This document shows, piece by piece, positions 55,786 to 60,660 of a stretch of DNA of 64,000 nucleotides. Position numbers and translations under genes: made by a program. The notes under the pieces were generated by a model. It did no database searches, was not told the origin of the DNA, and was given only the letters and a program-made list of their open reading frames with translations. The DNA is from Methylobacterium sp. FF17. GTDB taxonomy: Bacteria > Pseudomonadota > Alphaproteobacteria > Rhizobiales > Beijerinckiaceae. Each line of letters starts with the position of its first letter. The stretch's first letter is position 1. Where the stretch lies: assembly GCF_025813715.1 (NCBI RefSeq), contig NZ_CP107532.1, positions 4,604,001 to 4,668,000 on the forward strand. Direction: 5' to 3'.

Positions 55786-56211
55786 TCATCCGCATTTGTC
55801 CGTCGAGCACTTCGGCGTCGGGGCTTTGCGGCTGATATGAACCATGACGGCACATCTTTCTTCACCGATCGTGATTTCTGATTTTTCTGTACTCCACTTT
55901 CCTTTGGTTCCAACCGCATCCCTCAAAGTATACGAAACCTTACCCTTTGAGACCGTAATCCTGATTTCCTGTTCACGACAGTCCGAATTCTCATCGTAGA
56001 ATTTATTTTGAAAAATTCGATCCTTCATAGGGCCAGTGATGATCAATTTATTTTTTTCAATTTTGCTGTCACCTGAATCGGTGATGTCTCGCGCGAATGC
56101 GGTCGATGGCCTCGACAGTCCGAGCGCCACCAGGAAGACAAATATAACGATGAAAATTTTGCTTCGTTCATAGTCACGAATATGACCGCGATCGACAATC
56201 CCTCCAGACAA
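55786..56211 (-). CDS. Low-GC exported orphan protein
   Basis: A 141-residue protein with a signal peptide (KIFIVIFVFLVALGLSRPST AFA, about residues 18-40) and a polar, Lys-rich mature part with three or four Cys (about residues 78, 114, 134, 139), so possibly disulfide-bonded. No family is recognised. The DNA is strikingly AT-rich (for example ATTTATTTTTTTCAATTTTG around 56040) against near 70% GC around it, with A/T-ending codons, indicating recent transfer. It lies beside a decayed permease fragment on the other strand. Confidence 0.65.
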   Translation of the reverse strand: MSGGIVDRGHIRDYERSKIFIVIFVFLVALGLSRPSTAFARDITDSGDSKIEKNKLIITGPMKDRIFQNKFYDENSDCREQEIRITVSKGKVSYTLRDAVGTKGKWSTEKSEITIGEERCAVMVHISRKAPTPKCSTDKCG

Positions 56212-56240
56212 AGCTGTCCGGATGGACCGCTTCTCTGTGC

Positions 56241-56627
56241 ATGATACGAGAGTCAGGTTGGTTCGAAACCTGTTTTCGGGATGATCTCGAAAATCCCATC
56301 GGCGCCGTCACGGCGCTGACCGCCGGCCTGCTGCCGATCGACATCTTGGGCGAACGCGTAAGCATCGGGACGCTCCTCGCCTTGGTGGTCATCTGCGCCG
56401 CCGTGCCGGTGCTGCGCTGCCCCTTCCGGGTGCCCGCCCTGCCGGCGGCGGCGGGGCTCGGCATCCTGTCCCGCCTCGGACTGATGCGGGGCCTGCCGGC
56501 CGACACCTGGCTGCGCCTCGGCGCCTGGCTCGCCCTGGGGCTGGTGCTTTCTGCCGACTCTGGCCGCCGGGCGGCGCGGCGGCATCGATTGGCCACGCCG
56601 GGGTCCGTTCAGGCCCCGGCGCCCTGA
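56241..56627 (+). pseudogene. Amino-acid permease (APC superfamily) remnant, C-terminal end
   Basis: From about residue 22 the translation (TALTAGLLPIDILGERVSIGTLLALVVICA, then RCPFRVPALP and TWLRLGAWLALGLVLSADS) matches the last quarter of cationic amino acid/APC permeases, which normally read LLPIDxLGxLVSIGTLxAF and RPFRxP. The first ~11 helices are missing, the RRTRPxLPRPFR loop is shortened by several residues, and the start is fortuitous. The 5' side abuts the low-GC orphan. It cannot transport. Residue order is intact and high-GC, so decay is recent or it is a piece left after a deletion. Confidence 0.75.
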
Positions 56628-56636
56628 TCCCTGGGT

Positions 56637-56729
56637 TCAGTACTGGCGCGGGCTCGGGCGGCCGGAATAGCGGCGGCGCAGGTAGGACACGAGCTTGGGC
56701 AGCAGGAAGGCGACGAGGAGCTTGCGCAT
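56637..56729 (-). CDS. Thirty-residue basic peptide
   Basis: A short ORF: MRKLLVAFLLPKLVSYLRRR followed by ten residues rich in Tyr, Arg and Pro, then TGA. It has GGAGA five bases before the ATG, and an N-terminal amphipathic/hydrophobic helix with a basic tail, so it could sit at the membrane. No family is recognised. It lies just downstream of btaB on the same strand, 51 bp away, and could be part of that transcript. Confidence 0.5.
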   Translation of the reverse strand: MRKLLVAFLLPKLVSYLRRRYSGRPSPRQY

Positions 56730-56779: not shown

Positions 56780-57454
56780 CTAATGCGGGCGGGCCGCCTC
56801 CCGTTCCGGATCCGGGCGGGCGATCACCGCCTGCACGGCGTAGCCGCCGAAAAGCTGGCGCACCGTGGCCCGCGCGCCCAGGCCCGCCGCCACCCGCGCC
56901 ACCGCCTCCGGCAGGCTGACGCGCGGCGTCACCGCGAAGGTGGCGAGCCAGCGGTTGAGGAGGGCGCGGGCCGGGCCCGGCAGACCCGCCTGGCCGCCGA
57001 AATCCACCACGTGGAGCTGTCCGCCGGGCGCGAGGTGGCCGGCGGCCTGGGCCAGCACCCCCTCCCAGGGCGGGATCATCGACAGGGCGTAGGAGATCAC
57101 GATCCGGTCGAAGCTGTCCCGCCCGAACAGGGCGGCGGGGTCGAAGGCGGTCGCGTCCCCGCAGGCGAGGCGGATGCGGGGCCCGAGGCCGGCGCGGGCG
57201 ATGCTGCGGGCGGCGGTGTCGAGCATCGCGGCCGAGACGTCGAGGCCGTGGCAGGCCGCGTCCGGATAGGTCCGGGCGATCCGCACGAGGTTGCGCCCGG
57301 TGCCGCAGCCGACCTCCAGCACCGCGCTGCCCGCCGGCACGGCGAGGTCGGCGATCACCCGGTCGCGGCCCAGCAGGTAGAACTTGCGGCTGGCGTCGTA
57401 GAGGTGGCGCTGGTGCCGGTACATCCGGTCCATCGCGCGCGCGGCGTCGCTCAT
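56780..57454 (-). CDS. btaB: SAM-dependent methyltransferase, betaine lipid N-methylase
   Basis: A 224-residue class I methyltransferase. SAM motif AVLEVGCGTGRNLVRIART (about residues 44-62), GLDVSAAMLDTAARS, ACGDATAFDPAALF and VISYALSMIPPWEGVLAQAA are seen. Directly behind btaA it fits the three-step N-methylation of diacylglyceryl-homoserine to the betaine lipid DGTS. The ATG at 57454 lies in the last unit of a 14 bp repeat; a TTG at 57475 would give a longer but less likely protein. Together btaA-btaB form one transcript. Confidence 0.85.
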   Translation of the reverse strand: MSDAARAMDRMYRHQRHLYDASRKFYLLGRDRVIADLAVPAGSAVLEVGCGTGRNLVRIARTYPDAACHGLDVSAAMLDTAARSIARAGLGPRIRLACGDATAFDPAALFGRDSFDRIVISYALSMIPPWEGVLAQAAGHLAPGGQLHVVDFGGQAGLPGPARALLNRWLATFAVTPRVSLPEAVARVAAGLGARATVRQLFGGYAVQAVIARPDPEREAARPH

Positions 57455-57484
57455 GCGGCAGGGCTCATGCTGCAAGGCTCACGC
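57443..57484. repeat. 14 bp tandem repeat joining btaA and btaB
   Basis: On the minus strand GCGTGAGCCTTGCA, GCATGAGCCCTGCC, GCATGAGCGACGCC follow each other. The first holds the btaA stop and the third the btaB start, so the whole intergenic space is one copied unit. Confidence 0.7.
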
Positions 57485-58747
57485 GGGACGCAGGCGATAG
57501 AGGTGGAAGCCCCCGTAGATCGCGGAGCGGTCGCGGGCCTGGCCGGCGCGGCTCTCGGCCTCGGCGTAGTCCCAGGCGTTCAGGATCGCGTCCGGGATCC
57601 GGCCGGGCAGGCAGCGTTCGTCGGCCGCCGTGCGGAAGATAACCCGGGCGCCGGGCCGGGCGGTGCGGGTGATCTCGGTCCAGAGGGCGGTGAGGTCCGC
57701 GTCGCTCATCCAGTCCTGCGCGTCGAGGAGCACGTAGGCGTCGGCGCTGGCATCCGGGCTGGCGGCGAGGAACGCGGTCATCGATTGCTGGTGGTAGCCC
57801 ACCCGCTCGGTCCGCTCCCGCAGGGCCTCGAAGTGCCGGGGCTGGAGGTAGGGCGGCAGCGCGGCCTCGGGGCCGGGCGCGTAGCCCCGGCCGAAGGCCT
57901 GCCAGGCGAAGTAGTTGTCGGCGAGGTCGAAGTCGCAGGCGAGGCGTTCCAGGCGGCCGCGCAGCGCCGCCACCATGCCGCCGGGATGGTCGCCGGCCAG
58001 CGCCGTGTACTGCGCCGGCGGGATACCGAGGCCGTAGAGGGAGGCGGGCCGCCGGATCAGCCAGCGCACGAGGCGCTTCTCGAACAGGGGAGCGACGTGC
58101 GCGGCGAACAGGGTGCGCTGCTCGGCCCGGTCGCGGGCCGTGAGCACGCGGGAGAGGTCGCAGCCGTAGAGCCGGGCCAGCCCGTGCCCGGTGCCGATGA
58201 AGCGCCCGAGCAGGCCGTGCCGGAAGACCCCCTCGGCGAAGGCGGCGATGCGCCGGCGCCCGTCGAGGCGCCGCGCCTCCCAGTAGGCCCGCGCGCTCGC
58301 GTCGAGGCCGGGGGCGATCTGCGCGTCGTAGGCCGCCACGTTGGCGGGCGTGTCGGCCCGCCCGAAGAAGCGCAGGTAGGCCGCGTGGTCGGGGAGCCGG
58401 GTCAGGGCCGCGAGCTTGAGGCGCCCGAGCGCGATGTGGGCGCCGTTGAGGTCGACGGCGCTGATCCGGGCCGGGTCGGCCGTGAGGTAGGACAGCACGT
58501 TGCAGCTGCCCGAGGCGATGGCGACGACGTGGTCCTCCGGCGTCAGCGCCAGGGCCTCCAGGTCGACGACGGGATCCTCCCAGATCTGCGGGTAGACGAG
58601 CCCGCTGAAGGCCAGGGTGAACAGGCGCTCGGCGAGCCCGGCGCGGGAGAGCGCCCGGCTGCGATGCACGGCGCGGGTGAGGCCGAGGCTGGTTTCGCGG
58701 CGGACCGCCCGGGCGGCTGACGTCATGCGGGCTCTCGGACTGTCCAT
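57479..58747 (-). CDS. btaA: Diacylglycerol 3-amino-3-carboxypropyl transferase
   Basis: A 422-residue DUF3419 enzyme using SAM to attach a homoserine group to diacylglycerol, the first step of betaine lipid (DGTS) synthesis. The diagnostic LAFSGLVYPQIWEDPVVDLEA (about residues 46-66), VVAIASGSCNVLSYLTAD (SAM site), and DLNGAHIALGRLKLAALTRL are present; NYFAWQAFGRGY and DAQDWMSDADLTALW occur in the C-terminal half. Start 58747 or 58726 (MTSAARAV, with GAGAG). A PHO-box-like motif lies 35 bp upstream. DGTS replaces phospholipid under phosphate limitation. Confidence 0.92.
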   Translation of the reverse strand: MDSPRARMTSAARAVRRETSLGLTRAVHRSRALSRAGLAERLFTLAFSGLVYPQIWEDPVVDLEALALTPEDHVVAIASGSCNVLSYLTADPARISAVDLNGAHIALGRLKLAALTRLPDHAAYLRFFGRADTPANVAAYDAQIAPGLDASARAYWEARRLDGRRRIAAFAEGVFRHGLLGRFIGTGHGLARLYGCDLSRVLTARDRAEQRTLFAAHVAPLFEKRLVRWLIRRPASLYGLGIPPAQYTALAGDHPGGMVAALRGRLERLACDFDLADNYFAWQAFGRGYAPGPEAALPPYLQPRHFEALRERTERVGYHQQSMTAFLAASPDASADAYVLLDAQDWMSDADLTALWTEITRTARPGARVIFRTAADERCLPGRIPDAILNAWDYAEAESRAGQARDRSAIYGGFHLYRLRPA

Positions 58748-58781
58748 CGGGGTCGATGGATGCCGCCCCTACGCGCCGCGC

Positions 58782-58799
58782 ATGACCGGCCGGTGACAG
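58782..58799 (-). promoter_or_regulatory. PHO-box-like site upstream of btaAB
   Basis: On the minus strand CTGTCACCGGCCGGTCAT: two 7-base half-sites CTGTCAC and CGGTCAT separated by four bases (11 bp period), each one mismatch from the CTGTCAT PhoB half-site. It ends 35 bp before the btaA ATG at 58747, the place expected for PhoB to replace the -35. PhoB control of betaine lipid genes is known from other rhizobia. Confidence 0.6.
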
Positions 58800-58909
58800 G
58801 TCCGTGCCGGACGGCGGGAAGATCGTCACCGTGGCGGGAGCGCCCCGGAGCCGGATCGCCCCCGAACCCCGGCGATCCGGGAACGAATCGGCTCCCGGGC
58901 GCCGGTCGC

Positions 58910-58950
58910 GCGTCACAGGGTCGGCGTCACAGGTCCAGGGTCAGCGTCAC
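58910..58950. repeat. Imperfect tandem GCGTCAC repeats over the xth stop
   Basis: GCGTCAC recurs at 58910, 58924 and 58944, each followed by AGG or CGG, so the minus strand shows GTGACGCCGACCCTGTGACG. It overlaps the xth stop (58927-58929). Spacing is unequal (14 and 20), weaker than the other arrays. Confidence 0.5.
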
Positions 58951-59736
58951 CGGGGCGTGGTCGGAGGGACGCTCCCAGCCACGCGCGTGCCGGGCGACCG
59001 CGACATCGCGTACCGTGCCGGCGAGGTCGGGCGAGACCCAGGCATGGTCGAGGCGCCGGCCCTTGTCGGCCGCCGCCCAGTCCGGCGAGCGGTAGCTCCA
59101 CCAGGTGTAGATCTTCGTCGGCTCGGGCACGAGCAGGCGGGCCGCGTCGACCCAGCCGGCCTCCCCCCGCAGGGTCTCCAGCGCCTGCGTCTCCACGGGG
59201 GTGTGGCTCACCACGTCGAGGAGCTGCTTGTGCGACCAGACGTCGTGCTCCAGCGGCGCCACGTTGAGGTCGCCCACCAGGATGGCCGGGCCGGCGGGCC
59301 GGCGCCCGCCCCAGGCGCGCAGTTCGGCGAGGAAGTCGAGCTTGTGCGCGAATTTCGGGTTGAGGTCGCGGTCGGGCACGTCGCCGCCGGCGGGCACGTA
59401 GAAGTCGTGCAGCGCGATGCCGGCGGCCTTGCCGGCCTCCGGCCCCAGCACCGCCGCGATGTGGCGCGCGTCCTGGCGCTCGCAGAAGGCCATCACCGCG
59501 CGGCCCAGCAGGGGGAAGCGCGAGAGGATCGCGACGCCGTTATAGCCCTTCTGGCCGGCGAACACGACGTTCTCGTAGCCCGAGCCGCGCAGGGCTTTCA
59601 GGGGGAAGGCGTCGTCCGGGCACTTCGTCTCCTGCAGGCAGAGCACGTCCGGCTGCTGCTCGGCCAGGAAGCGCAGCACCGAGTCGATGCGCAGGCGCAC
59701 CGAGTTGATGTTCCAGGTGGTGACGGTGAAGCGCAC
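58927..59736 (-). CDS. xth: Exodeoxyribonuclease III
   Basis: A 269-residue AP endonuclease and 3' exonuclease of base excision repair. FTVTTWNINSVRLRIDSVLR (N9), CLQETKCPDDAFP (E36), AILVGDLNVAPLEHDVWSHK (Asp and Asn), and the terminal DHAWVSPDL with PSDHAPVTLTLDL contain the catalytic residues. GTG at 59736 is the start; the frame is open upstream but those residues are not conserved. Divergent from the acyltransferase gene. Its stop is covered by a short repeat. Confidence 0.94.
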   Translation of the reverse strand: MRFTVTTWNINSVRLRIDSVLRFLAEQQPDVLCLQETKCPDDAFPLKALRGSGYENVVFAGQKGYNGVAILSRFPLLGRAVMAFCERQDARHIAAVLGPEAGKAAGIALHDFYVPAGGDVPDRDLNPKFAHKLDFLAELRAWGGRRPAGPAILVGDLNVAPLEHDVWSHKQLLDVVSHTPVETQALETLRGEAGWVDAARLLVPEPTKIYTWWSYRSPDWAAADKGRRLDHAWVSPDLAGTVRDVAVARHARGWERPSDHAPVTLTLDL

Positions 59737-59907: not shown

Positions 59908-60660
59908 GTGTCGCGCATCCGTTCCGCGCTCTTCAACGCCTACTGGGCCGGCTGGACCGCCCTGTTCATCGTGCCGCTGGCGGTGCTCGCCCTGCTGGGC
60001 GCGCCGGCCCGGCCCATCCGGGCCTTCACGCGCCTGTGGTCGCGCGGAATCCTGTTCGGGCTCCGGCACATCGTCGGGCTCACCTACGTCGAGGAAGGGC
60101 GCGCCCACATCCCCGCCGAGCCCTGCCTCATCGTGGCCAACCACCAGTCGGCCTGGGAGACGCTCGCCTTCCTCGTGCTGGTGCCCAACGTCGCCATCGT
60201 GGCCAAGCGCGAACTCGTCGCGATCCCGATCGTGGGCTGGTTCCTGCGCCGCTCGCCGATGATCATCATCGACCGGGCCAACGGCACCCAGGCCCTGCGG
60301 GTGATGATCGACGAGAGCCGCGCGGCGATCGCGCAGGGGCGCTCGGTGCTGATGTTCCCGGAGGGCACGCGGGGCGGCATCGCCGAGCCGGTGCAGTTCA
60401 AGCGCGGCGTCGAGCTGCTCTACGCCAAGCTCGGGCTCCCGGTGCTGCCGGTGGCGGTGAATTCCGGGCTGTACTGGCCCCATGGCGGAGCCCGCCACAG
60501 CCCCGGCGCGGTCACGGTGAGCTACCTGCCCCCCCTGCCCCCGGGCCTGAGCGGCGCCGAATTCATGCGCGGCACCCAAGGGGCGATCGACGCCGAGCTC
60601 GACCGCTGGCGCGAGCCGGGCGCCGCGGCGGAGGCGGCGCCCGGCGTCCCGGCGTCGTAG
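59908..60660 (+). CDS. plsC: 1-acyl-sn-glycerol-3-phosphate acyltransferase
   Basis: A 250-residue inner-membrane enzyme acylating lysophosphatidate or a related lipid. HX4D-type motif is NHQSAWE (H79, E84, a Glu variant), followed by MFPEGTRGG (about residues 149-157) and LLYAKLGLPVLPVAVNSGLYW. One N-terminal helix (WTALFIVPLAVLALLG) anchors it. A GTG start precedes SRIRSALF. It is near btaAB, so the lipid context is suggestive, but specificity cannot be read. Convergent with tatC, stops 10 bp apart. Confidence 0.88.
   Translation: MSRIRSALFNAYWAGWTALFIVPLAVLALLGAPARPIRAFTRLWSRGILFGLRHIVGLTYVEEGRAHIPAEPCLIVANHQSAWETLAFLVLVPNVAIVAKRELVAIPIVGWFLRRSPMIIIDRANGTQALRVMIDESRAAIAQGRSVLMFPEGTRGGIAEPVQFKRGVELLYAKLGLPVLPVAVNSGLYWPHGGARHSPGAVTVSYLPPLPPGLSGAEFMRGTQGAIDAELDRWREPGAAAEAAPGVPAS

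Follow-up and report, generated by a model that had tools for sequence, protein, structure and literature searches.

The btaA and btaB genes of Methylobacterium sp. FF17 lie together behind a direct repeat resembling a PHO box, and the locus raises the question of whether they form an operon that makes the betaine lipid DGTS under phosphate starvation. We analysed a stretch of 64,000 nucleotides (the window), placed at C1:4604001-4668000 in its own genome; positions are those of the window unless preceded by C1. On the sequence comparisons described below, btaAB is very probably such an operon, activated by PhoB, and the synthesis of a phosphorus-free lipid would probably let the bacterium spare phosphorus.

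The btaA and btaB genes

The two genes are the following.
57479-58726, minus strand: btaA, matching PF11899 (DUF3419); 415 aa when read from Met8 of a longer open reading frame
56780-57454, minus strand: btaB, N-methyltransferase; a class I methyltransferase directly 3' of btaA

The adjacency of btaA (DUF3419) and btaB in the original prediction was borne out. The PF11899 model aligned with BtaA from position 5 to 384 of its 385 positions with 363 bits (cut-off 28.2), the domain covering nearly the whole protein, and a btaB homologue was present 3' of btaA on the same strand in 102/102 btaA loci (the locus of the window, 80 loci from named genomes and 21 obtained by searching the genus), with a gap shorter than 60 bp in 100 of them and larger in 2. 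The interval that had been given for the operon, 57443-58799, covers btaA and the box and leaves btaB almost entirely outside. No second DUF3419 match besides BtaA occurs in the genome, which comprises seven contigs and 6 Mb. Several relatives, with 66-91% identity, are named SAM:diacylglycerol 3-amino-3-carboxypropyltransferase by their source, and, judged by its sequence, btaA is the gene of this S-adenosylmethionine:diacylglycerol 3-amino-3-carboxypropyltransferase. Among solved structures, no relative of BtaA was found up to E = 1, and the structure search with BtaB matched many methyltransferases, none of which is named BtaB.

The longest ATG frame of btaA opens at 58747. The start at Met8 of this frame, position 58726, is the likely one, because the ATG there is conserved (21/21 aligned btaA promoters, preceded in most by GAGAG or a comparable purine stretch), that at 58747 is not conserved among relatives, and a near-identical database copy of BtaA has 415 aa, matching a start at 58726. 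In the same way, the btaB frame as listed opens with TTG at 57475, and translation more probably begins with the ATG at 57454.

The repeat upstream of btaA

Upstream of btaA, on the same strand, we distinguish three elements.
58782-58799, minus strand: PHO box CTGTCAC-CGGC-CGGTCAT, a PhoB-type direct repeat with half-sites 11 bp apart
58804-58810, minus strand: CCGGCAC, a weak third PhoB half-site in register with the main repeat, 11 bp further upstream
58766-58771, minus strand: TAGGGG, putative -10 element, 10 bp downstream of the box

The sequence, the position and the 11 bp period of the box had been correctly predicted. The predicted distance of 35 bp to btaA becomes 56 bp, because it was measured from the ATG at 58747 and not from the start at 58726. 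Each half-site is one base away from CTGTCAT. The third half-site, CCGGCAC, was absent from the original prediction; this weaker half is particular to the genome of the window among the 21 aligned promoters.

When the window was searched with CTGTCATN4CTGTCAT, allowing up to two mismatches, a single match was found, the btaA site with two mismatches, compared to a mean of 0.07 matches in shuffled sequences, 6 of 100 of which contained at least one. The pattern CTGTCAYN4CNGTCAY, which was loosened with the btaA site in view, has one exact match in the 6-Mb genome and ten places with one mismatch; with up to two mismatches it is unspecific, with at least 276 places genome-wide vs 143 for the control. 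To avoid scoring the btaA motif against itself, a matrix was trained on pstS promoters only, using the three-half-site stretches of 27 distinct promoters from the 30 best pstS loci (pstS loci were found in 109/110 genus genomes). With this matrix, the btaA site ranked first of 127,944 window positions, at 13.1 bits; places that do not overlap it reached at most 4.0 bits. The genome's own pstS site, which is within the training set, scores 40.9 bits. These data support the assignment of the repeat before btaA as a PhoB-type PHO box, at which PhoB is predicted to bind.

The promoter was then compared among the 21 Methylobacterium genomes that carry the operon. In 21/21 carriers, GTCACN6GTCA is present at -68 to -78 from the btaA ATG, and an invariant TA follows the box at a distance of 10 bp; the half-site identity in this count is partly by construction, the motif being the alignment anchor, and an independent MAFFT alignment marked the same half-site columns as invariant. 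In the 60 bp on the 5' side of the motif, the mean pairwise identity is 0.27 to 0.46, and in all three chromosomal settings of the operon (see below) the conservation starts at the box. The hexamer TAGGGG that contains the invariant TA in the window is far from TATAAT, and its role as a -10 element is putative.

Among alphaproteobacteria more widely, the forward repeat, scored at 11 or more of 14, was found upstream of btaA in 61/78 alphaproteobacterial loci, many of which are related and hence are not independent events, compared to 9/78 on the reverse strand and 6/78 for the reversed pattern; the other 17/78 score below 11 of 14. The 78 are the 80 named-genome loci minus L035 and L039, whose contigs begin at the gene.

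These comparisons bear on whether the repeat is in use. btaAB could make DGTS constitutively or in response to another signal, the repeat being a relic or a mere modulator, and a btaA site that is much weaker than the genome's own pstS box would be compatible with this. However, repeat and TA spacing are kept in every carrier next to upstream DNA of only about 0.3 pairwise identity, and the repeat is enriched at btaA in other alphaproteobacteria, which makes constitutive expression or another signal unlikely.

PhoB, other phosphate genes and the predicted pathway

Elsewhere in the genome, the following genes and sites are relevant to the control and the substrate of the operon.
C1:2367939-2368616: PhoB orthologue, above the curated cut-off
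C1:4409946-4409972, minus strand: three-half-site PHO-box-like place (L217), some 23 bp upstream of the probable start of the pit gene
C1:530074-530892: PlcP-like metallophosphoesterase (L146), PF00149, immediately followed by a family 4 glycosyltransferase

The PhoB orthologue, with 341.8 bits for a cut-off of 296.2, is encoded about 4.9 kb after pstS. The original prediction had called for the same PHO box to be sought before other phosphate genes, and similar boxes do precede pstS and a pit-type permease gene in this genome. A three-half-site pattern with at most one mismatch finds 6 places vs 1 for the control: pstS (0 mismatches), btaA (1 mismatch), one place upstream of the pit-type gene, and three inside long open frames. 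The pattern was drawn up with two of these sites, pstS and btaA, already in view, so that the pit place alone counts as independent. The permease matches PF01384 with 242 bits, and the NCBIfam PitA model below its cut-off; it is a possible candidate for a PhoB-repressed target. Scored on two half-sites, pstS reaches 12 or more of 14 with the forward repeat in 29/30 loci and with the reversed pattern in 5/30; at 11 or more, the reversed-pattern control already reaches 15/30, and this score is to be read with caution.

This genome encodes many OmpR/PhoB-like regulators, which may read similar repeats; the first 14 matches to the PhoB model are all full-length or almost so. Another response regulator of the OmpR family might then read the repeat instead of PhoB. 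Against this stands the first rank of the btaA site in the window under a matrix derived from pstS, a classical PhoB target, and we consider a different regulator very unlikely. That PhoB represses btaAB through the repeat is extremely unlikely: a box 10 bp before a -10 element is the geometry of activated promoters, and the btaA box has this spacing to the conserved TA. PhoB can repress, a box-like site here precedes the pit-type gene, and, according to the available part of PMC8829014, pit1 is among the most repressed genes of phosphate-stressed S. meliloti, but the same source reports btaA and btaB as induced.

Activation of btaAB by PhoB, the preferred reading, is thus supported by the rank of the btaA site with the pstS matrix, its retention in 21/21 carriers and three settings, the boxes before pstS and pit, and the presence of a PhoB orthologue. 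Under low phosphate, PhoB activated by PhoR would bind the direct repeat at 58782-58799 and recruit RNA polymerase, with the putative -10 element 10 bp downstream, and btaA and btaB would be transcribed together. BtaA would transfer the 3-amino-3-carboxypropyl group of S-adenosylmethionine to diacylglycerol, and three methylations of the product by BtaB would yield DGTS. The diacylglycerol would come from phospholipids, probably via a PlcP-like phospholipase encoded elsewhere in the genome; phosphate would be recovered, and the zwitterionic phosphorus-free lipid would replace phospholipid.

For this last function the candidate is the metallophosphoesterase at C1:530074-530892, which, from its sequence features, we take to be PlcP-like. 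NCBIfam gave only LpxH-type models for it, below their cut-offs. A PlcP-like protein is present in 109/110 genus genomes. A PHO box was also sought before the plcP-like gene but is not claimed, the scores of 11-14 of 21 being barely above those of the reversed-pattern control (10-12). The best-scoring stretch contains GTCATCAAA[C/G]TGATAC in 25/30 plcP-like loci. The genome also encodes an OlsB-type domain (PF13444, 108 bits), related to ornithine lipids.

The two-enzyme pathway is the same as that of btaA and btaB of Rhodobacter sphaeroides, reportedly the subject of Klug and Benning (2001), the likeness referring to the pathway scheme. PhoB-controlled DGTS synthesis is already known in Sinorhizobium and Agrobacterium, and the Methylobacterium case is a new member. 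In the available parts of the respective papers, PhoB activates DGTS genes (PMC3972451), and btaA and btaB of S. meliloti show high induction under phosphate stress (PMC8829014). The S. meliloti btaAB and Agrobacterium pathway, as far as the same excerpts describe it, comprises BtaA and BtaB, PhoB control and PlcP-derived diacylglycerol (PMC8829014, PMC3972451), and we infer the same components here from sequence. Unlike in S. meliloti and Agrobacterium, the genes stand in another genus and gene neighbourhood, the box is similar to that of pstS in the same genus, and only 21/111 Methylobacterium genomes contain the operon. In Phaeobacter sp. MED193, the accessible part of PMC4796936 describes DGTS genes with predicted PHO boxes and the abolition of DGTS by plcP deletion, plcP thus being needed for DGTS; btaA and btaB lie downstream of plcP there, whereas in the window's genome the PlcP-like gene is far off, beside the family 4 glycosyltransferase. 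In the available portion of a methanotroph study (PMC9239053), neither btaA nor betaine nor DGTS is mentioned. Among the hits listed from the open-licence literature, none reported DGTS in Methylobacterium, which is no proof of absence.

Chromosomal settings and neighbouring genes

The genes that flank the operon are the following.
58927-59736, minus strand: xth-type exonuclease/endonuclease gene, PF03372; a neighbour outside the lipid unit
59908-60660, plus strand: plsC-type acyltransferase, PF01553, with TIGR00530 below its cut-off; a neighbour outside the lipid unit
56640-56729, minus strand: small open reading frame of 30 aa, at the other edge of the junction that holds btaAB

btaAB has no match in the remaining 90/111 genus genomes, and the 21 carriers fall into three chromosomal settings of 12 (the window's lineage), 7 and 2 genomes. 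In the 12 carriers of the window's lineage, btaAB lies between xth and the 30-aa frame. This junction is empty in 18/18 other loci where both genes were seen, about 70 to 140 bp apart; these loci correspond to 11 genomes lacking btaA and 7 with btaAB at another place. In 7 carriers (L121-L123, L125, L127-L129), btaAB lies after another xth paralogue, which shares 35-36% identity with that of the window. No xth was found near btaA in 75 non-genus loci or in the two loci of the third lineage, and the presence of an xth gene beside btaAB in two lineages is an unexplained coincidence.

In the gene trees, the BtaA proteins of the genus form one clade with a support of 0.992 and an internal split at 0.368, and in the PlcP gene tree the deep nodes are supported at 0.07 to 0.46. 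Because these deep supports and that of the internal BtaA split are low, relocation, loss and transfer are indistinguishable. We give about an even chance to the view that btaAB and its PHO-box promoter are a compact portable cassette, present in three settings and, in the window's lineage, inserted into a previously tight junction between xth and the small frame, which would add an optional PhoB-controlled DGTS layer to a near-universal PlcP-like/glycosyltransferase pair. The contrast within the genus, together with the change of place, is the less expected part of the finding. If the reading as a PhoB-controlled DGTS operon is true, a subset of Methylobacterium can swap phospholipid for DGTS when phosphate is scarce, and carriers and non-carriers, which share pstS, the PlcP-like gene and most functions, would be a natural contrast for the fitness value of betaine lipids.

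The suggestion that the neighbouring plsC belongs to the same lipid context was not upheld. Matches of some kind to plsC, which is divergent from xth, occur in 110/110 genus genomes and close copies (at least 70% identity) in 66/110, including 45 genomes without btaA. Among the carriers, plsC is within about 2.2 kb of btaA in 12/21 and away from it in 9/21, of which 6 have it on a separate contig and 3 at a distance of over 1 Mb. With the pstS-trained matrix, no place before plsC is among the top 8 of the window. With close copies in genomes lacking btaA, distant copies in some carriers and no place among the top 8 of the PHO-box matrix, plsC was rejected as a member of the lipid unit.

Some minor observations were made on these loci. 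The genome G078, which is 70% complete, has two different btaA sequences (L124 and L141), one of them partial and cut by a contig end, corresponding either to a mixed assembly or to a second copy. The product of the small frame at 56640-56729 is hydrophobic-basic, MRKLLVAFLLPKLVSYLRRRYSGRPSPRQY; located by tblastn, it has matches in 89/110 genus genomes, often with a second, more distant copy, and adjoins xth where btaAB is absent. Further along, window positions 55786-56627 contain a 141-aa frame without Pfam match, in a stretch that reads as AT-rich, and beside it a 128-aa frame, whose sole match is to the C-terminal domain of amino acid permeases, is perhaps a cut permease gene.
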